Origin: Sipunculus nudus
Taxonomy: Eukaryota > Annelida > Sipuncula > Golfingiida > Sipunculidae
Assembly (NCBI GenBank): GCA_026874595.1
Contig: CM049313.1
Coordinates: forward strand, 65,910,159-65,974,158
DNA: 64,000 nt
Direction of reading: 5' to 3'
Program-made: the position numbers and the translations under genes
In this document: positions 12,681 to 64,000 of the stretch, one piece after another
Layout: each line of letters begins with the position of its first letter
Position numbering within the stretch: position 1 is the first letter of the stretch
The notes under the pieces: model-generated
The model's input: the letters and a program-made list of their open reading frames with translations, nothing else
What the model was told of the DNA's origin: nothing
Database searches by the model: none

Positions 12681-13568
12681 AGGAATTGTAACTATCAGCA
12701 TACAAAACTTACGTGTTTATGTATGGAGAACATATCATTACGCCTACAGGGGCGGATTTAGAAGGGGCAGGGTTGGACGCCATCTCCTTTTCGATCTAAC
12801 TTTTTTTTATAGGAAAATATACGATTAATTTAAAATATCACCGCCAGATTTTGCATTCAGCACCTTTTTTCTCGTTTTAAACCTGCATGCGAGAGTTATG
12901 TATAAGTTTACAAGTACTGTCGGAGAACTTGTTTTCCGCCCCCCCCCCCCACCCCCCTTCTAAGATCCTGTTTGCGCCCTTTTCGTTTATAAGAGGTTGT
13001 CCTCTTGCCATCTTTTATGTTCCAAGATTCTAGTTTGGCTTGCATATGTTCGACAGATACATTTTTAAAGAAATGATACATAAAAAACAGCATTCTTATA
13101 AATGTATATGTATCGCACGGTTTTCGGCAGAAAAAAATTGATTCTCAGGCATCGGTGGATAGAGCCGGAAGCGTCATGTATACGAATCCCGCAGGATGTA
13201 TGTCTCCATTGTATTATCGTCTGTTTGAGTCGGAATACTCAGATGAAGATTAATGGAATAAATATATATACACTTGTGCAGGAATCTGCAGTCCTTGTGG
13301 TTCACTTACACTAACCTGACCCTTTCCCTTTGGAAAGGACATATATATTTGAGCACGGATACAAGGACTGCGTGAATTATTAAACCGAGACTGGTAAAAC
13401 TATGTATCATTTTATGTGACATATCAGACCACTGACTGAGATAAAAAAAATATTCCAGTGTCTTTGTGTAGATGGGATTGCATTTTAAGTCCGCCTTTAG
13501 TCGAGACGGATAAAAAAGAATGTCGTTTTATCTGGCAGAAAGCTACTGCGTCTTAAACAGAGAAATGC
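12681..13568. repeat. Near-identical duplicated block, copy A
   Basis: The block starts at AGGAATTGTAACTATCAG and ends at AAACAGAGAAATGC. It repeats in direct orientation at 16752-17638. By eye I find two differences: AAAATATC against AAAAAATC near 12835, and a C run one base longer here. Flanking sequence differs completely on both sides. The ends show no inverted repeats and no convincing target duplication, so this looks like a recent segmental duplication (or an assembly artefact) rather than a simple transposon. Each copy contains a G/C-run MITE-like piece. Confidence 0.9.
12747..12983. mobile_element. G-run MITE-like piece inside duplicated block A
   Basis: The left end is CAGGGGCGGATTTAGAAGGG. 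The right end, read in reverse complement, is AAAAGGGCGCAAACAGGATC followed by TTAGAAGGGG. The two termini are imperfect inverted repeats with a TAGAAGGGG core next to the C run at 12939-12950. This resembles the other CAGGGGCG termini in the window. I cannot see a target duplication, so the superfamily is unassigned. Confidence 0.45.
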
Positions 13569-16751: not shown

Positions 16752-17638
16752 AGGAATTGTAACTATCAGCATACAAAACTTACGTGTTTATGTATGGAGA
16801 ACATATCATTACGCCTACAGGGGCGGATTTAGAAGGGGCAGGGTTGGACGCCATCTCCTTTTCGATCTAACTTTTTTTTATAGGAAAATATACGATTAAT
16901 TTAAAAAATCACCGCCAGATTTTGCATTCAGCACCTTTTTTCTCGTTTTAAACCTGCATGCGAGAGTTATGTATAAGTTTACAAGTACTGTCGGAGAACT
17001 TGTTTTCCGCCCCCCCCCCCACCCCCCTTCTAAGATCCTGTTTGCGCCCTTTTCGTTTATAAGAGGTTGTCCTCTTGCCATCTTTTATGTTCCAAGATTC
17101 TAGTTTGGCTTGCATATGTTCGACAGATACATTTTTAAAGAAATGATACATAAAAAACAGCATTCTTATAAATGTATATGTATCGCACGGTTTTCGGCAG
17201 AAAAAAATTGATTCTCAGGCATCGGTGGATAGAGCCGGAAGCGTCATGTATACGAATCCCGCAGGATGTATGTCTCCATTGTATTATCGTCTGTTTGAGT
17301 CGGAATACTCAGATGAAGATTAATGGAATAAATATATATACACTTGTGCAGGAATCTGCAGTCCTTGTGGTTCACTTACACTAACCTGACCCTTTCCCTT
17401 TGGAAAGGACATATATATTTGAGCACGGATACAAGGACTGCGTGAATTATTAAACCGAGACTGGTAAAACTATGTATCATTTTATGTGACATATCAGACC
17501 ACTGACTGAGATAAAAAAAATATTCCAGTGTCTTTGTGTAGATGGGATTGCATTTTAAGTCCGCCTTTAGTCGAGACGGATAAAAAAGAATGTCGTTTTA
17601 TCTGGCAGAAAGCTACTGCGTCTTAAACAGAGAAATGC
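16752..17638. repeat. Near-identical duplicated block, copy B
   Basis: Second copy of the block at 12681-13568, in the same orientation, offset by 4071 bases and by 4070 after the C run. The embedded short frames (61-71 codons) are identical in both copies except around the C run. There is no sign that they are coding. Confidence 0.9.
16818..17053. mobile_element. G-run MITE-like piece inside duplicated block B
   Basis: The same MITE-like piece as at 12747-12983, carried along by the duplication. Confidence 0.45.
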
Positions 17639-20639: not shown

Positions 20640-21755
20640 GGAATTTAACAGTTTGACCTGATTTTCTTTGACAGTTTTGAACCAGGATATTTGGACAGTA
20701 ATGGACCTGGATATTTGAACAATGTCGGAGCTTCTTATTTCGATAGTGATGGACCTGAATATTTTGACAGTGTTGGACCTGAACATTAGGACAGTGTTGG
20801 ACCTGAATATTTCAACAGTGTTGGACATGAATATAAGAACAGTGTTGGCCCTAGATATTTGGACAGTGTTGGACCTGAATATTTCGACGGTGTTTGACCT
20901 GGATATTTCGAAAGTGTTGGACCTGAATATTTTGAGAGCGTTAGACCAGGATATTTCGACAGTGTTGAACCTGGATATTTGGACTGTCTTGGACCCCAAT
21001 ATTTCGATAGTGTTGGACCCGAATATTAGGACAGGGTTGAACCCTGATATTTCGACAGTATTGGACCAGAACATTATTAGGACAGTGTTTGACCTGTATG
21101 TTTGGACAGCGTTTAACCTGAATATTTCGACGGTGTTTAACCTGAATATTTCGACGGTGTTTGACCTAAATATTTCGACTGTGTTGGACCTGAATATTTG
21201 GAGAGCGTTAGACCAGGATATTTCGACTGTGTTGGACGTAGATATTTGGACAGTGTTTAACCTAGATATTTGGACTGTGTTGGACCCTAATTTTTTCGAT
21301 AATGTTGGACCTGAATATTAGGAAAGGGTTGAACCTGGACATTTCGATATTGTTAGACCTGAATATTAGGACAGTGTTTGGCCTGAATATTTGGACAGCG
21401 TTGGACCTGAATATTTCGACGGTGTTTGACCTGGATCTTTGACTGTGTTTGACCTGAATATTTGGAGAGCGTAAGACCAGAATATTTGGACTGTTTTGGA
21501 CCTGAATATTTCGATAGTGTTGGATATAGATATTAGGACAGCGTTGGACCTGAATATATGGACAGTGTTGGATTTGAATATTAGGACCGAGTTGGACCTG
21601 GGTATTTCGACAGTGTTGGACATGAATATTTAGGGAGTGTTGGACCTGATTATTAGAACAGTGCTTGACCAGGATATTTCGACAGTGTTTCGACCTGAAT
21701 ATTTTGACTGCTAGTGTTCGATCTGAATATTTGGCCTGTGTTGGACCTTTTATTT
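20640..21755. repeat. 24-bp minisatellite, about 45 units
   Basis: Degenerate tandem units with the consensus TTGGACCTGAATATTTCGAC followed by AGTG. Because 24 is a multiple of three, open frames persist on both strands: plus strand 20722-21321 (199 codons, an eight-residue pattern like TVLDLNIS) and minus strand 20613-21074 (153 codons, a pattern like VEISRSNT). These frames follow from the period and are not taken as genes. The array abuts the candidate exon at 21750-22001. Confidence 0.9.
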
Positions 21756-24021: not shown

Positions 24022-24800
24022 GCACACTTCATTTCCGCTTCACAGTGTACATTTAAATTTCTGGGAATATTACTGTGGGCGTAAGAACTACTTTACCCTT
24101 TGAGGGAATTCAGTTGCTAATAGGCCATGATGTTGCATGGGACAAAGTACAGCCTGTACCAATAGTGACAGAAAAGCCGTCACTTGATCAGGACACTGAT
24201 CCTGAAATTCAGGAAATTCCTAGTTTGTATCCTTCATGTGCTGTAACTAGATATATGGCCAAGAAAAACACACATGAGGATAATGGTCAAGATAATAACA
24301 CTCTGGGAGTCACTTGTGACTCGTCTAACGACTCGCCAGTACAGAATGCAGCATTTTCAAGGTCAGAACTTATCGCGGAACAGCATAAGGACCCTGATAT
24401 TTCAAGTTTGTTTCCCAGGCGGTTTCTAAAGATGAACTGTCACAGAACCCAGTTTGTATCCTAGGTAAAATTGGAGTGCTTATGCGTAAATGGTGACCAC
24501 CTGATGTATGCGCTGATGATGAGTGGGCCATCAAACATCAAATCGTAGTGCCCAAAAGTTATCGGAATAAAATTCTAAGCATGGCACATGAGGCTCCTTT
24601 ATCTGGCCATTTAGGTATAAATAAAACTAATCAGAAAGTTAGTATACACTTCTATTGGCCTAACCTCAAGACAGATTTGGTACAATAGTGTAAGTCATGC
24701 CATACATGCCAGATGGTAAGCAAGCCCAATAAAATTCCTCCTTAAGCCCCACTTAGGCCTATTCCTGCTTTCGAGAAACCATTTAGTAGGATTATTGCTG
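24022..24800 (+). pseudogene. Ty3/Gypsy pol relic: end of protease, linker, integrase zinc domain
   Basis: Three recognisable parts lie in order. First is a post-protease segment typical of animal Gypsy polyproteins (VGVRTTLPFEGIQLLIGHDV, in frame from about 24056, with a frameshift just upstream). Second is an acidic linker with an AVTR motif and a SELIAEQHKDPDISSLF segment (to about 24420). Third is the H2C2 integrase zinc-binding domain at 24540-24720, where HEAPLSGHLG and CKSCHTCQ supply the His and Cys ligands. A short start of the integrase core (AFEKPFSRIIADC) follows near 24770. No reverse transcriptase lies between protease and integrase, which fits the Gmr1-like order (integrase before RT) known in some animal Gypsy elements. 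Stops and frameshifts (24464, 24690, 24747, 24808) make it non-functional, and it breaks off into LTR-like sequence. Confidence 0.8.
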
Positions 24801-24874: not shown

Positions 24875-25233
24875 TATGTTTAAAGGACTTGTAGAGCTGT
24901 GACAGTGCTGTGACAGTATCATGAATCAAAGCCTAGGATCCGGACAATCTAGTACTGTACACTTCATTTATTATACTGTGTTATTATTGTATTGATTTAC
25001 TGTCATACTGTTGATTTACTGTGTAACTGTATTGATTTAGTGTATTGTAATGTTAGGGTTGTTTTAAGAATATATTATTACTATTGGTTTTCAAAAAAAC
25101 AATGAATTCTTTATTCATTCCCCTAGACATTCACGCTGCCTAGTGTTACAGAATCTAATTTTTTTCATCTCTGTAACAAAATGTATGTTCGTCACGACTA
25201 CGCGATATGTTGTTATTAGGTTCCGTAACTACA
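24875..25233 (+). mobile_element. LTR-like sequence following the pol relic
   Basis: This matches the 3' half of the probable solo LTR at 45314-46046 through many shared phrases: TGTGACAGTG, AATCAAAGCCTAGGATCCGG, TACTGTACA, GTATTGATTTAGTG, TTCTTTATTCATTCCCCTAG, ACGCTGCCTAGTGTT and GTTGTTATTAGGTTCCGT. It ends near the same point as the solo LTR. Its position directly after a pol relic supports a 3' LTR of a Gypsy element with a large internal deletion. Confidence 0.65.
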
Positions 25234-37991: not shown

Positions 37992-37995
37992 ACAT

Positions 37996-38153
37996 TGTTA
38001 CGAAGACAAATAAATGAGGGGAAAATCCTGGGCCGATCCGGGAGTCGAACCCAGGTCGGTGGCGCACAAGTCCGGCGTACAACAACCGCTTCGCTAGCAA
38101 AGCATGCTTCTCTAGCGAGACAGTTCGGTCCGCTTTTATTTCACCCCGTAACA
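37996..38153 (-). repeat. TRIM LTR, full copy with tRNA-like segment (3' LTR)
   Basis: This 158-bp LTR contains, on the minus strand, an A-box-like TAGCGAAGCGGTT. About 35 bases downstream comes a perfect-looking T-arm (CTGGG, loop TTCGACT, CCCGG), in which GGTTCGACTCC is a good B box. A GCCGGACTTGT phrase between them resembles an anticodon arm. The acceptor strands do not pair, so it is a tRNA-derived module and not a tRNA gene. Confidence 0.75.
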
Positions 38154-38267
38154 CACCCCCTCTTAAAAGCGCTATCACAACAGGACTCATAATCCCAGGA
38201 GTCACACTTTGGTGAGCTTATTCCCTGGGCTACAAAGTTAACCGGTACGTTAGACGAGCCCCAATTT

Positions 38268-38380
38268 TGTTACGAAGACAAATTTTTGAGGGGAAAAAAC
38301 CTGGGCTGATCCCGGAGTCGAACCCAAAGCAAGTTTCGCTAGCGAGACAGTTTGGTCCGCTTTTATGTCACCCCGTAACA
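38268..38380 (-). repeat. TRIM LTR, shortened copy (5' LTR)
   Basis: This 113-bp LTR has the same ends and the same GGAGTCGAACCC (T-arm) core as the full copy. It lacks about 45 bases that contain the A-box half. The deletion lies between the AACCC core and the TTCGCTAGCGAGACAG segment, which is itself partly duplicated in the full copy. Confidence 0.75.
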
Positions 38381-38384
38381 ACAT

Positions 38385-45313: not shown

Positions 45314-46046
45314 TGTTACAGGTGTCTGCGCAGGAGTGTTACATATGTCTGTTGACATTCTAATTCGTGTAGCCCAGGCATAGTTCCTTGTTATGGGAAC
45401 CTCGCTTGTTGGGCGCTTGCTCGCGGGGTCTAAAGCGTAGAGACACAGCGTTCTTTTTTGTTCTAGATGTTTCGGGTCTGTTCATATGCGTGTGTATTGT
45501 TCTTTGAAATTTTCCTTTTCTAGAATTTTCGAGTGAGAAGCTATAAATAGGGCTGTGTTTAGAGCCGGCAGAAAGGAAAATACCGGCGAGCACTTATAAT
45601 AGAGTGTTACTTTCTCGTCAGTTTTGGGACCTTTTCCGATAAATGCAGTGGTGTTAGATATTCATCGGACTTAATACAGATGTAATACGGACTGTCTCCA
45701 GTTTGCCTTTGAATAATTACTATTTACGTTGATTATTGGTATTAAAGGGCTCTAGTTGAGCCGTGACAGTGGTGGTATCCAGAAATCAAAGCCTAGGATC
45801 CGGACACTCTGGTACTGTACATTTTATTGTTATACTCTGTAATTGTATTGATTTAGTGTTTTGTAATGTTAGGATTGCTTAAGAATAAATTATAATTATT
45901 GGTTAACAAAAAAAGCACTGACTTCTTTATTCATTCCCCTAGACATTTTACGCTGCCTAGTGTTCAGAATCTGATTTTTTTTATCTTCGCAACAAAATTT
46001 TTGCTGATCACGATTACGTGATCTGTTGTTATTAGGTTCCGTTACA
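45314..46046 (+). mobile_element. Probable solo LTR of a Gypsy-type element
   Basis: The 733-bp unit runs from TGTTACAGG to CCGTTACA, with TG...CA ends. It contains a TATA box (CTATAAATAG, 45541-45550) and an AATAAA signal (45884-45889), in the right order for U3-R-U5. The five flanking bases are TTAAT on the left and TCAAT on the right, a possible 5-bp target duplication with one change. Its 3' half matches 24875-25233, which follows a Gypsy pol relic. A GTGGTATCCAG phrase at about 45773 looks like a primer-binding site, so the LTR could instead end near 45768 with internal sequence following. Confidence 0.6.
45541..45550 (+). promoter_or_regulatory. LTR TATA box
   Basis: CTATAAATAG, about 230 bases into the LTR and 340 before its AATAAA signal. 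Confidence 0.5.
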
Positions 46047-46175
46047 TCAATTCACAGGTGGTCTTATTAGACTGGTCAGTTTTAACTTATGTGAATGGTT
46101 TCCGTTCACTCAAAGGTGGTCCTAACAGGCAGGTGGTCTTGTTACATAGGTGGTCGTTTAGAGAGATTCTAATGC
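46047..46175. mobile_element. Remnant related to the mariner-like MITE
   Basis: Repeated AGGTGGTC phrases end in GGTGGTCGTTTAGAGAGATT-CTA, similar to the GGTGGTCGTAATTTAGGGGG-ATTCTA end of the MITE at 26675-26842. The other end is missing; the LTR inserted immediately to the left. Confidence 0.45.
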
Positions 46176-51683: not shown

Positions 51684-52758
51684 GATCGGATGTTGATTTA
51701 CGCTATATATAGACTTCCTGGTTGTTCTACAGGATTGCTCCTCCTATTAATGCTCCGACAGTAGGAGGGGAGGCTTATAGGGGTTCCGATCTTGATTTAC
51801 GCTATGTAGACTTCCTGGTTGTTCTCCAGGATTGCTCCTCCTATTAATGCTCCGACAGTAGGAGGGGAGGCTTATAGGGGTTCCGATGTTGATTTACGCT
51901 ATATAGACTTCCTCTTTGTTCTCCAGGATTGCTCCTCCTATTACGTCTCCGACAGTAGGAGGGGAGGATTATAGGGGTTCCGATGTTGATTTACGCTATA
52001 TAGAAATCCTGGTTGTTCTCCAGGATTGCTCCTCCTATTAAGGTTCCGACAGTAGGAGGGGAGGCTTACAGGGGTTCCGATCTTGATTTACGCTATATAG
52101 ACTTCCTGGTTGTTCTACAGGATTGCTCCTCCTATTAATGCTCCGACAGTAGGAAGGGAGGCTTATAGGGGTTCCGATGTTGATTTATGCTATATAGACT
52201 TCCTGGTTGTTCTACAGGATTGCTCCTCCTATTACGTCTCTGCCGGTAGGAGGGTAGGCCAATAGGGGTTCCGATGTTGATTAACGCTATATAGACTTCC
52301 TGTTTGTTCTCCAGGATTGCTTCTCCTATTACGTCTCTGCCGGTAGGAGGGGAGGCTTATAGGGGTTCCGATGTTGATTTACGCTATATAGACTTCCTGG
52401 TTGTTCTACAGGATTGCAATTCCTATTACGTCTCTGCCGGTAGGAGGGGAGGCTTATTGGGGTTCCGATGTTGATTTACGCTATATACACTTCATGGTTG
52501 TTCTACAGGATTACTCCTCCTATTAAGGCTCCGACAGTAGGAGGGGAGGCTTAAAAGGGTTCCGATGTTGATTTGCGCTATATAGACTTCCTGGTTGATC
52601 TATAGGAATACTCCTCCTATTAAGTCTCTGCCGGTAGGAGGGGAGGCCTATAGGGGTTCCGATGTTGATTTACGCTATATAGACTTCCTGGTAATTCTCC
52701 AGGATTGCTCCTCCTATTACGTCTCTGCCAGTAGGACGTGATGGTTTATAGGGGTTGA
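51684..52758. repeat. 97-bp satellite, 11 units
   Basis: The anchor TTGATTTACGCTATAT starts at 51693, 51792, 51889, 51986, 52083, 52180, 52277, 52374, 52471, 52568 and 52665. The spacing is exactly 97 bases except for the first step (99). Each unit contains an inverted repeat, CTCCTCCTATT and AGTAGGAGGGGAG around about 11 bases, able to form a hairpin. Two sequence types alternate in the loop region (ATGCTCCGACAG and ACGTCTCTGCCGG). No open frame over 60 codons runs through it. Confidence 0.95.
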
Positions 52759-60908: not shown

Positions 60909-63666
60909 TTAATTTGTGTTTTCCTGTAGTATGTTAAGTGGGGTTATGTGTTTGTTTTTAGGTTTAGTTCTTCTATGTGTAGTGATTATTTCAGCAATTT
61001 TGGGATTGTTATTAATTCTTTTGTAGGCGTTTGTTGATTGTTCTGTTATGTAGTCTAGTATTTTTAGTGTATTTGTTTGTTCTCTTAAGATGTTGGTATT
61101 GGTTCTTCTCCTTGCTCTTAGGATGGCTCGGAGTGCATTGTCTTGTTGTACCTCTAATTTTTTTAGGTAAGTTTTGGGGGCACCTAGGAAGGCTATGGAT
61201 CCATATGTGCCTATTGGGCGGATCCATTGTTTGTATAGGTAGGTGGCGGTCTCGATGGAGGGCCCTTCTCTCAGTCTGCACACTTTTTTAAGGGCATTTG
61301 TGCGTTGCCACATTCTGTGTGTTATGTCTTCTATGTGTGTTTTCCAATTGGCTCTTTCATCAAAAGTAAGGCCTAGGAATTTTGCAGTTTTGGATTCTTT
61401 GAGGTCTTTCTCTTGTAATTCGAAGGTTTCAAACCATTTGTTTTTTATGGCCTTGGTGAATAAAACTGTTTGGGTTTTGTCTGGGTTAAGTTTTATTCTC
61501 CATCTGTTGCACCAGTTACTGATGCGGTCTAATTGGGCTTGTACCATGGTGCCAGCAAGTTCGGATTTCTTGCTGGTTGTTCATATGGCTATGTCGTCAG
61601 CAAATTGTGACACTTGGGCCTGCTGGCTGGTTTTTGGTAGGTCATTTACATATATTATAAACAGTACTGGACTCAGGACTGAGCCTTGGGGAGTTCCAGC
61701 CTGTAGTGTTATTTCTCTGGAGTGGGTGCTATTTATGTTTACTTTGAGAGTTCTATCTTGTAGAAATGATGATAAAATTCTAATAAATTTGTTTGGGAGT
61801 TTGGTTCTCATGAGTTTAAGTCTCAGTCCTTCAATCCAGACTGCATCGAAAGCCTTTTCCACATCGAGGAATGTGGCTAGTGTGGCTTCGGATTTTTGGA
61901 ATCCATTGTGGATTGATTGACTTAGTCTGAATAGTTGATCTATAGTGGACCTACCTGCATGTTTTAAAACCTGCCTGGTTTTCATTAAAGAAGGGACCGC
62001 CTAATTCTTGGGCTCTGTTGTTGAGGAAATTTGTAATTTTGTTTTTTATTATTTTTTTAAATAGTTTTCCTAGGCATGGGAGAAGGCTAATTGGCCTGTG
62101 GTTTTTAGGTAATTCTGTGTCTTTGTTTGGTTTAGGAATCATGGTGACTAGAGCAGTTTTCCATACTGCTGGGAAGTAGCCCCATGTCAGGCATAGGTTA
62201 TAAAGGCTTGCAATTTTGTAAAATCCTATGTCTGGTACCTTTTTAAGTATTTTGTAGTTTATTTTATCTATTCCTGGGGCTGATTTTCCTTTGCATGTGT
62301 TTAGTGCTCTTTTTATTTCTATTATTGAGATGGGCCGAGCAGTGTCGGAGTCATCTCCTGGTTCTGTGGTGGGTTGGTTTAGTGGAGTGAATAAAGTTTT
62401 GATAATATCTAAGACTTCATTGACTTGTTGTTTGAATTTGTCATCATAGTGTTCATTTTCTGGTGTTTTATGTATATTTTCTAGTGTTTCAGCGAATAAA
62501 TCTGCCCTCTCATTTGCTGTAGTAGCTGTTGAGCCATCTGGGCGTGTCAGAGTTTTGATTTTGCCGGTGTTTGGGTTTAATTGGGAATCCAGAAATCCCC
62601 TAAGTTTGTAGTGTGGTCTAAGCCTGTAATGTATTCATTCCACTGTTTTCTTTTTTGTGCTAGGATTGAGTCTTTTACTTGTTTACTGAGGTAGTTATAC
62701 TGTGTTTTGTCATCTGGGTGGCTAGTGGTCTTATATTTTGTCCTGGCTTTTCTTCTAAGTTTTACCAGGTGTTTTATGTCTGGGGTAAATTTCCACGAGT
62801 TTCTGTTTGTTACTTCTTGTTCTGGTGCTACTGTGTCTATTGCTTTTTTTATGATGTTTGTGATGCTATCAACTACTATGTCAATTTGTGTGTGTGATAT
62901 TATGAGGGAGTTATTGGGGTCTATCATGTTTTCTGTTATTATTTTATTAAATTTTTTTGGAGGTTTCTATATAATTTTGGTGGGTTGATTATTGGTTGCC
63001 AGTCTAATTTTGTATGTATGGGGTGGTGGTCTGAGTCTAGGTCCTCCCCAACACTGAAGTCTGCGACTATAGCGACATCTGGTGAGGATATTGCTAAGTC
63101 GAGTATATTCCATTGGCCTGTTGTGTTTTGTGTAAAAGTGGGTTCTGTGTTATTTATTAGCACTAGACTGCCGTCAGACGTTTCGTCCATTAGTATTTTC
63201 CCTGATGTGTTTGTGTACCTGGCACCATATTGTGTATGTGGGGAGTTTAGGTCTCCCATTATGATGAAGTGTGGGCTTTTGCTTTTAATTTTCCTGAAAA
63301 TTTCTTTATTTATTTTTTCTTGTGTGGGTTATAGTAGGCAATTATGTCTAGGAATGGCATATTGCCTTCTATACCATTTATTCTGATTGATAGGATTTCA
63401 TCCTCTGTGTTGTTAAACCAGTTATTGATGGAGTAGTCAAGTTTGCTGTTAATAGCATTGGCTACTCCGCCTCCTTTATCCTCCCTGTCTTTTCGACATA
63501 GGGTGTAGTTTCCCAGTGAGAAATGGGAGCTTGGTGATAGCTTTGTTTCTGTAAATAAGGCTATGTCTGTTTTGTGATCTGTTAGGTAGTTTAATATTTC
63601 ATTTTGTTTATTCTCTATAGAATTTGCATTTAGATGCATTATTTTTATTGCGCTTTGTTTATTCAT
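60909..63666 (-). pseudogene. Jockey-like LINE ORF2: endonuclease and reverse transcriptase, frameshifted
   Basis: This would nick the target and copy the element's RNA at the nick. Read from 63666 downward, the start has HLNANS and FTETKL motifs of the apurinic-type endonuclease, then KGGGVANA. GDLNSPH (about 63255), ILDLAISSP and SDHHPIHTKL (about 63030) complete that domain. A linker with LRRKARTKYKT follows (62577-62927). The reverse transcriptase then shows KSAPGIDKI (about 62285), a PKNHRPISLLPCLGKLFKK segment, FLDVEKAFDAVW, AGTPQGSVLSPVLF and FADDIAI (catalytic Asp pair intact, about 61595). The thumb and C-terminal part runs to a stop at 60909. The total of about 919 codons is normal for Jockey ORF2, and there is no RNase H. 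Breaks: single-base frameshifts near 63290, 62935, 62580 and 61970, each at a short homopolymer, and a TGA at 61581-61583 just after FADDIAI. Confidence 0.92.
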
Positions 63667-63695
63667 GTTGTTTTGTGTTGGTTGTGGGTTGAAAG

Positions 63696-64000
63696 TTAAT
63701 TTTGATGCGTCGTGTTTTTGGTGGGTATAGTGTTATTTTCATTTGTGTGTTTTGTGTTGTTTGTTGGTTGCACCCTGGTTGGTCTCTCCATTTTTCCAGG
63801 TTTTTTTATTTTTCTATATCCTCATTAGAGTTGCACCAGAAGGTGACAACTCCTTTGTAGGCGTTGTAATAGGTATTCTTAATGGTGTGTTTTGGATATA
63901 CTTCTCTGATTATGTTTGCCATGTTTATTTCGTTTTGTGCCGTGACGGGGTCAATTCCTGCCACTGACACTGGTTTCAGGGTTTTTTTCTCTGTTTTGTT
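63696..64000 (-). pseudogene. Jockey-like LINE ORF1, C-terminal part
   Basis: From the window edge downward, a frame (64000-63806) contains a VSVAGIDPVTAQNEINMANI segment and a VVTFWCNSNEDIEK segment, which resemble the RRM/pre-zinc-knuckle part of Jockey ORF1 nucleic-acid-binding proteins. It stops at 63806, inside an A run. In the next frame it stays open through a Thr/Asn/Pro-rich end to a stop at 63696, 30 bases before the ORF2 start at 63666. This spacing is usual between the two frames of such elements. The N-terminal part lies outside the window. The identification rests on position and faint similarity. Confidence 0.6.

Follow-up and report, generated by a model that had tools for sequence, protein, structure and literature searches.

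Helenus elements are TRIMs that carry tRNA-derived sequence in their LTRs (Kojima 2024, PMC10886601). According to that paper, their lengths range from 311 to 1263 bp, animal members make 4-bp target duplications, and bivalve families have a tRNA-Pro primer-binding site (PBS), with tandem arrays in one family. Gypsy is proposed there as the helper of animal Helenus, the link being PBS similarity, and Pol III transcription of Helenus is treated as unproven. Two other systems are close. Cassandra is a plant TRIM whose LTRs hold the promoter and terminator of a small-RNA gene, 5S rRNA, and which lacks genes and forms tandem arrays (PMC7215508); its reported transcription spans from one LTR's 5S unit to the 5S unit of the second LTR (PMC10886601). 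The bivalve biv-TRIM is an animal TRIM with high copy number and tandem arrays, and PMC6934838 gives it repeats of 202-218 bp, an internal part of 77-80 bp, the polypurine tract (PPT) GGGGAGA, another inner motif and no unambiguous PBS.

The element studied here lies in a window of Sipunculus nudus DNA, by which we mean the whole stretch of 64,000 nucleotides that was analysed. It is a Helenus-type TRIM (TRIMp3), assigned by the described features. Like Helenus, the family has tRNA-derived sequence in the LTR, a PBS of tRNA-Pro type, a PPT, 4-bp duplications, a fitting length (copies of 385-444 bp) and arrays. The tRNA-like sequence of the LTR was recognised by its A and B boxes, their spacing and a T run, and the tRNA-type PBS is common to a Gypsy element, PBS variants being frequent in the sampled Gypsy copies. 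One difference is that the Helenus paper links TRIM and Gypsy in animals by PBS similarity, whereas here a Gypsy leader and part of gag are joined to the TRIM LTR. The putative small-RNA-gene promoter and terminator in the LTR, the absence of genes and the tandem arrays are shared with Cassandra, which differs by its 5S rRNA in place of a tRNA-like unit, by its PBS and by its plant host. Cassandra was rejected, as Rfam scans of the window copy and 13 other loci gave no 5S match. The bivalve biv-TRIM was likewise rejected: the LTRs are 154-158 bp long in 74 of 93 cases, the internal parts 118-120 bp in 55 of 58 from the first set of loci (114 bp in the window copy), and the PPT is AAGAGGGGGTG. 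A pattern search of viral contigs gave 0 matches.

Anatomy of the window copy

On the minus strand the order is ATGT, a 113-bp 5' LTR, a 114-bp internal part, a 158-bp 3' LTR and ATGT, and the element is 385 bp long without the target duplications.

38381..38384, minus strand: target-site duplication, 5' side (ATGT; ACAT on the plus strand), from the sequence
38268..38380, minus strand: 5' LTR, 113 bp, without the middle of the tRNA-like unit, from the sequence and LTR alignment
38314..38324, minus strand: B-box-like GGTTCGACTCC of the 5' LTR, from the sequence
38294..38299, minus strand: T6 run of the 5' LTR, possible Pol III terminator, from the sequence
38154..38267, minus strand: internal part, 114 bp, from the sequence
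38253..38264, minus strand: primer-binding site TTGGGGCTCGTC, tRNA-Pro type, from the sequence and family comparison
38154..38164, minus strand: polypurine tract AAGAGGGGGTG, from the sequence and family comparison
37996..38153, minus strand: 3' LTR, 158 bp, whole tRNA-like unit present, from the sequence and LTR alignment
38086..38096, minus strand: A-box-like TAGCGAAGCGG of the 3' LTR, from the sequence
38041..38051, minus strand: B-box-like GGTTCGACTCC of the 3' LTR, 45 bases past the start of the A box, from the sequence
38022..38025, minus strand: T4 run of the 3' LTR, 15 bases past the B box, from the sequence
37992..37995, minus strand: target-site duplication, 3' side (ATGT), from the sequence

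Both LTRs start with TGTTACG and end with CGTAACA. Their alignment has 11 mismatches in 112 positions (K2P 0.105), three of the mismatches being adjacent, and 46 positions of the 3' LTR are unpaired in the 5' LTR. The window copy is an old member of its family, in which the 5' LTR promoter and the PBS are both damaged. An imperfect palindrome of 28 bases surrounds the start of the A box in the 3' LTR. Chance is excluded by the E values of the repeated LTR halves (2e-15 to 3e-19), by the rarity of the end pattern (the window has a single TGTTACG N80-110 CGTAACA where 0.01 would be expected) and by the recurrence of the same architecture across the genome. BLAST found no second copy of the element within the window. 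The longest stop-free stretch on either strand is 74 codons, so the element has no coding space.

The first-pass annotation had read this place as a TRIM without coding space, with LTRs of 158 and 113 bp, TGTTACG...CGTAACA ends, a PBS-like sequence and a purine tract directly inside the LTRs and an ACAT duplication outside. All of these features are present, with TTGGGGCTCGTC and AAGAGGGGGTG in the expected places, and with two short TG..CA LTRs, PBS, PPT and target duplication the TRIM reading holds. The minus-strand orientation, the tRNA-like unit of the LTR and the changed base of the primer site had been overlooked. It had considered the example worth describing as a family; this family is not of a new kind, because an LTR with a tRNA-like promoter unit assigns it to the already described Helenus (PMC10886601).

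The window also holds other repeats. An 888-bp direct repeat (12681-13568 and 16752-17638) is 99.8% identical over copies 4071 bp apart, and is either a recent duplication or an assembly artefact. Remains of a non-LTR retrotransposon lie on the minus strand at 60909-63732, with weak endonuclease and reverse transcriptase (RT) matches, both below the Pfam cut-off. Tandem arrays are found at 51689-52756 (97-bp units) and 20651-21748 (24-bp units).

Copies, ends and primer sites in the genome

The Sipunculus nudus genome (1,426,538,692 bases in 153 contigs) was searched with the element. This yielded 3047 first-look candidates, and the 40 that were scored (L001-L040, the first set) were all fetched, and the LTR and internal part were mapped on each. 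The family is very abundant in this 1.43-Gb genome. Both outer ends are present in 35 copies or arrays of the first set; 25 of these have target duplications of at least 4 bp (24 of exactly 4 bp, five of them ATAT, and one of 6 bp inside an AT repeat), and in the other 10 no duplication of this length was found. A second search used the internal part alone as query (808 candidates, 40 scored, 30 fetched). This internal-first sample shares with the first set the window copy (L041) and L042/L043, L050, L057, L058 and L069, and two of its loci, L064 and L065, have common flanks. Duplications of at least 4 bp flank 15 of its 20 complete-ended loci, a count that overlaps the first set. Many copies with TGTTACG and CGTAACA ends and 4-bp duplications, as the first-pass annotation had predicted, are thus found in both samples.

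Complete simple copies with two LTRs measure 385-444 bp. Many of them are 430-433 bp, and the window copy is therefore a shortened one. Arrays of the form LTR-internal-LTR-internal-LTR or longer make up 16 of the 40 first-set loci, with a maximum of five LTRs, and half of them (8/16) are flanked as wholes by duplications. Between the outermost LTRs of a locus, K2P is 0.014-0.166 across 38 loci of the first set, the pairs of L003 and L006 not being sister LTRs, and this range indicates that the family was active over a long span. The first set seemed to have too many short 5' LTRs, which was discarded as a selection effect, since just 1 of 12 is short in the internal-first set.

All 30 internal-first loci have an LTR on one or both sides of the internal part. 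The LTRs are therefore not merely independent short repeats, an outcome that would have spoken against the first-pass reading. The same count bears on whether the family could be a SINE or a dimeric tRNA-derived repeat and not an LTR element. Such a repeat would have a tRNA-like unit with A and B boxes, as seen here, but the TG..CA ends, the PBS and PPT directly inside them, the 4-bp duplications, the adjoining LTRs and the ends of the window copy, which have no poly(A) or tail repeat, make this reading scarcely credible. The single unit, 3' tail, variable duplications and lack of LTRs of a SINE do not describe this family, and the SINE candidate was rejected.

The primer site of the LTR element matches the tRNA-Pro site TGGGGGCTCGTCCGGGAT over at least 12 bases in 33 of the 58 first-set internal parts; 21 others match over fewer than 12 bases and 4 have no TGG there. 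The site of the window copy has one base changed (T for G) from the commonest form, TGGGGGCTCGTC. At the other end, TTAAGAGGGGGTG is the terminal sequence (PPT) of 36 of the 58. The tRNA-Pro site used for this comparison, 18 letters long, is named as complementary to tRNA-Pro in PMC1769482. Two loci, L097 (around 1500, minus strand) and L121 (C1:12760245-12760795), show an LTR, an extended primer site and then an inverted LTR. Their primer site extends along the tRNA-Pro complement over 18 of 18 bases of the published site, and they continue into the inverted LTR through its tRNA-like stretch as fold-back products. It looks as if the tRNA primer had been copied and synthesis had then switched to the tRNA-like unit of the LTR itself. 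Elsewhere, four primer-site matches on one strand (G000:C7:18544281, 18586570, 18626814 and 18665395) follow each other about 40 kb apart, the pattern of a large tandem duplication.

The two LTRs of an insertion are expected to leave reverse transcription with the same U5. In loci L001-L120 a U5 block about 20 bases from the 3' end of the LTR occurs as type 1 (CATTTATTTG), type 2 (CAACAATTTG) and others, and the types differ between both LTRs of some single insertions and inside arrays. The 21 three-piece copies of the first set comprise, as 5'/3' type, seven 2/1, five 1/1, two 2/2, no 1/2 and seven with other letters, and in a side test the observed value was reached in none of 1000 permutations. 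Copies of this set were chosen by likeness to the window copy, itself in the 2/1 state, and the internal-first side test gave p 0.47 (n=11), or 0.24 when restricted to copies with duplications (n=9). The 2/1 excess is therefore attributed to selection, and inherited unequal LTRs, which would go against canonical replication, were rejected as its explanation. Mixed copies do exist. In a set fetched by the type-2 junction pattern (50 loci out of 108 sites), 24 simple copies include 13 with type 2 on both sides, 4 mixed, 5 unclear and 2 unreadable; two of the mixed ones (L071 and L072) are probably one event, and one unclear copy (L075) is by eye type 1 at its 3' side. Arrays whose inner U5 types differ (L102, L110 and L116) suggest recombination of cDNA or of copies, and not only duplication of one element.

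The tRNA-like unit of the LTR

A tRNA gene has its A and B boxes about 44 bases apart and its terminator after the acceptor stem. The transcript strand of the window 3' LTR reads TAGCGAAGCGG, 45 bases on GGTTCGACTCC, and then TTTT. The window contains this A..B pattern a single time, and the pattern appears in none of 20000 shuffled versions of the LTR. It is found in 46 of 93 LTRs, against none of the 93 when reversed and none of the 58 internal parts; two of the 93 were entered as the window's own, the window 3' LTR being recounted through L001. Recognised singly by pattern, the A box is present in 67 LTRs, the B box in 67 and both in 47, and the A-to-B distance is 43 in 40 of these 47. A run of at least four T follows the B box in 59 of the 67 LTRs that have one, 15 bases on in 58. 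The majority share across copies is 0.958 for the A box and 0.959 for the B box, against 0.927-0.940 for their neighbours, 0.959-0.964 for the LTR ends and 0.972 for LTR positions 13-36. Since the boxes are just slightly better kept than their neighbours, a constraint on them is suggested more by the spacing than by conservation.

The unit is not a clean tRNA. ARAGORN called no tRNA in the window and 2 among the 29 LTRs listed, and Rfam gave weak tRNA-like (T-arm) matches in the window copy, below gathering scores, and no tRNA match at E 0.1 in 13 other loci.

Boxes, spacing and T run point to Pol III transcription of the TRIM. An ordinary TRIM transcribed by Pol II, in which the tRNA-like unit would be a roleless fossil of a SINE once inserted in the LTR, is a possible but less probable account. 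It would suit the well-kept CATAAAA-type motif near the LTR start, the T runs of the 5' LTR, which oppose read-through by Pol III, the slight margin in conservation of the boxes, and the roughly half of LTRs in which a box is broken by the patterns used. It would leave the nearly invariant A-to-B spacing and T-run position among copies hard to understand, and the same boxes are kept by Helenus elements of several phyla (PMC10886601).

A proposed Gypsy-type partner and the chimeras

An exact search of the genome for the pattern TAACANNNTGGGGGCTCGTCCGG gave 215 sites, and for its reversed control 0. Ten short pieces were taken from the listed sites; seven are TRIM copies or rearranged TRIMs (L121, L123-L125, L127-L129) and three are not (L122, L126 and L130). 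In L122, the end of another and longer element, an LTR end is followed by the primer site, some 150 bases of leader and a gag-like start. Two 1-kb pieces located 2.2 to 4.8 kb downstream (L131 and L132; G000:C1:30043900-30046500) hold integrase and RT domains, with values of 1.4e-13 for H2C2, 4.9e-15 for RT and 2.2e-7 for rve, the last just under the curated cut-off. By their position, the leader and these domains appear to belong to one Gypsy copy. Integrase stands before RT in the pieces read, 600 bases between them lying outside those pieces. This Copia-like order may be a rearrangement; it is also the order known for Gmr1-like Gypsy elements. Remains of the same family lie about 7.5 and 13 kb from the TRIM element in the window:

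24057..24461, plus strand: pol remnant (before integrase), 82% amino-acid identity over 125 residues to L131, from protein comparison
25024..25229, plus strand: 3' part of an LTR, 85.5% to L122, from sequence match
45840..46047, plus strand: second LTR remnant, 84.3% to L122, from sequence match

A likeness of 20 bases between the element and window positions 45980-45999 had been considered as a shared LTR end; it lies inside the Gypsy LTR remnant 45840-46047 and is treated as chance.

The first-pass annotation had looked for a larger Gypsy element with matching LTR ends and PBS. This is borne out for the primer site and for the last seven bases of the LTR (CGTAACA), which are the same as in the TRIM, but not for the rest of the roughly 200 bases fetched from the end of the Gypsy LTR, which gave no TRIM LTR match at E 1e-4. 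A search with the leader gave 1254 candidates, of which 40 were scored and 20 places sampled. All 20 are in Gypsy context, with an upstream Gypsy LTR (15 by pattern, 5 by eye) and a gag start beside the leader (17 by pattern, 3 with one-base changes by eye). The PBS pattern is present in 14 of the 20, TGGGGGCTCGTCC in 3 only, and several others have variants such as TGGGGGCTCTCGTC.

At four loci (L123, L006, L113 and L117) a TRIM LTR is joined to the Gypsy leader in the order TRIM LTR, PBS, leader, and in three of them also to the gag start. L123 is a TRIM copy in which the leader follows the primer site and precedes the usual internal part. L006 consists of an LTR, a PBS shortened to its first 8 bases, the leader, some 600 bases of gag region interrupted by stops, a partial TRIM LTR, an internal part and an LTR, and is flanked on both sides by AGTT, a 4-bp duplication; as its sequence indicates, it is integrated as one unit. 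L113 together with L133 has the architecture of L006 at 86.4% identity end to end, and no clear duplication was found in the AT-rich flanks of L113. L117 has a TRIM LTR cut at its 5' end, the leader, about 20 bases of gag, a TRIM LTR end, an internal part and an LTR. Switching between TRIM and Gypsy RNAs in reverse transcription would be the simplest account of these chimeras, and some of them could have been made by recombination after integration.

L126 (C3:67375474) and L130 (C6:64299545) represent a second LTR family with the same tRNA-Pro PBS and a TTT spacer. They are 98.9% identical over 453 bp, so this family was probably active recently, and because it has the same PBS the helpers may be several. 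It could be argued that the Gypsy link is due to DNA recombination only, the true helper being another LTR element with the same PBS. The near-identical copies of the second family, the dissimilar end of the linked Gypsy LTR and the frequent PBS variants of the sampled Gypsy leaders are in keeping with that argument. We consider it improbable in view of the LTR-PBS-leader order at four loci, of the AGTT duplications that bound the L006 chimera as a unit and of the same architecture at a second place (L113).

We thus prefer a Gypsy-assisted cycle. The structure, ends, duplications, PBS, PPT, tRNA-like unit, high copy number, arrays and chimeras, all of which are read from the sequence, are probably explained jointly by a Pol III promoter in the tRNA-like unit, priming by tRNA-Pro, helper proteins from a Gypsy family and RNA switching that made the chimeras. 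The tRNA-like unit inside the LTR would act as an internal Pol III promoter through its A and B boxes, and the later T run would set the 3' end. Transcription would start at the unit of the 5' LTR, read past the T run there and stop at the T run of the 3' LTR, which would make the unit the R region. Read-through would be needed in the 5' LTR because the T run stands there too. The tRNA-Pro would prime the minus strand at the PBS and the purine tract the plus strand, and a Gypsy-type family sharing this PBS would supply the proteins that reverse-transcribe the TRIM and integrate it with 4-bp duplications. Template switching between both RNAs in this process may give chimeras, which are then integrated. 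More specifically, we lean towards the view that the Pol III-type TRIM RNA and the RNA of one Gypsy family meet in one particle and are reverse-transcribed together, and that the chimera of tRNA-like LTR, leader and gag has itself multiplied (two loci so far).

A T run in both LTRs sharpens the question of how an RNA that passes this signal in the 5' LTR would be ended by it in the 3' LTR. As to the way in which protein-free LTR elements with promoters of Pol III type come by a helper, the 2024 Helenus description offers PBS likeness for animals, and the chimeras bear on the same matter. If the proposal is true, it would for the first time in the literature searched give a tRNA-bearing animal TRIM a helper identified through recombinants and not through PBS likeness. 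With one target duplication among them, the chimeras single out a definite family of one genome as candidate helper, which makes the pairing testable.
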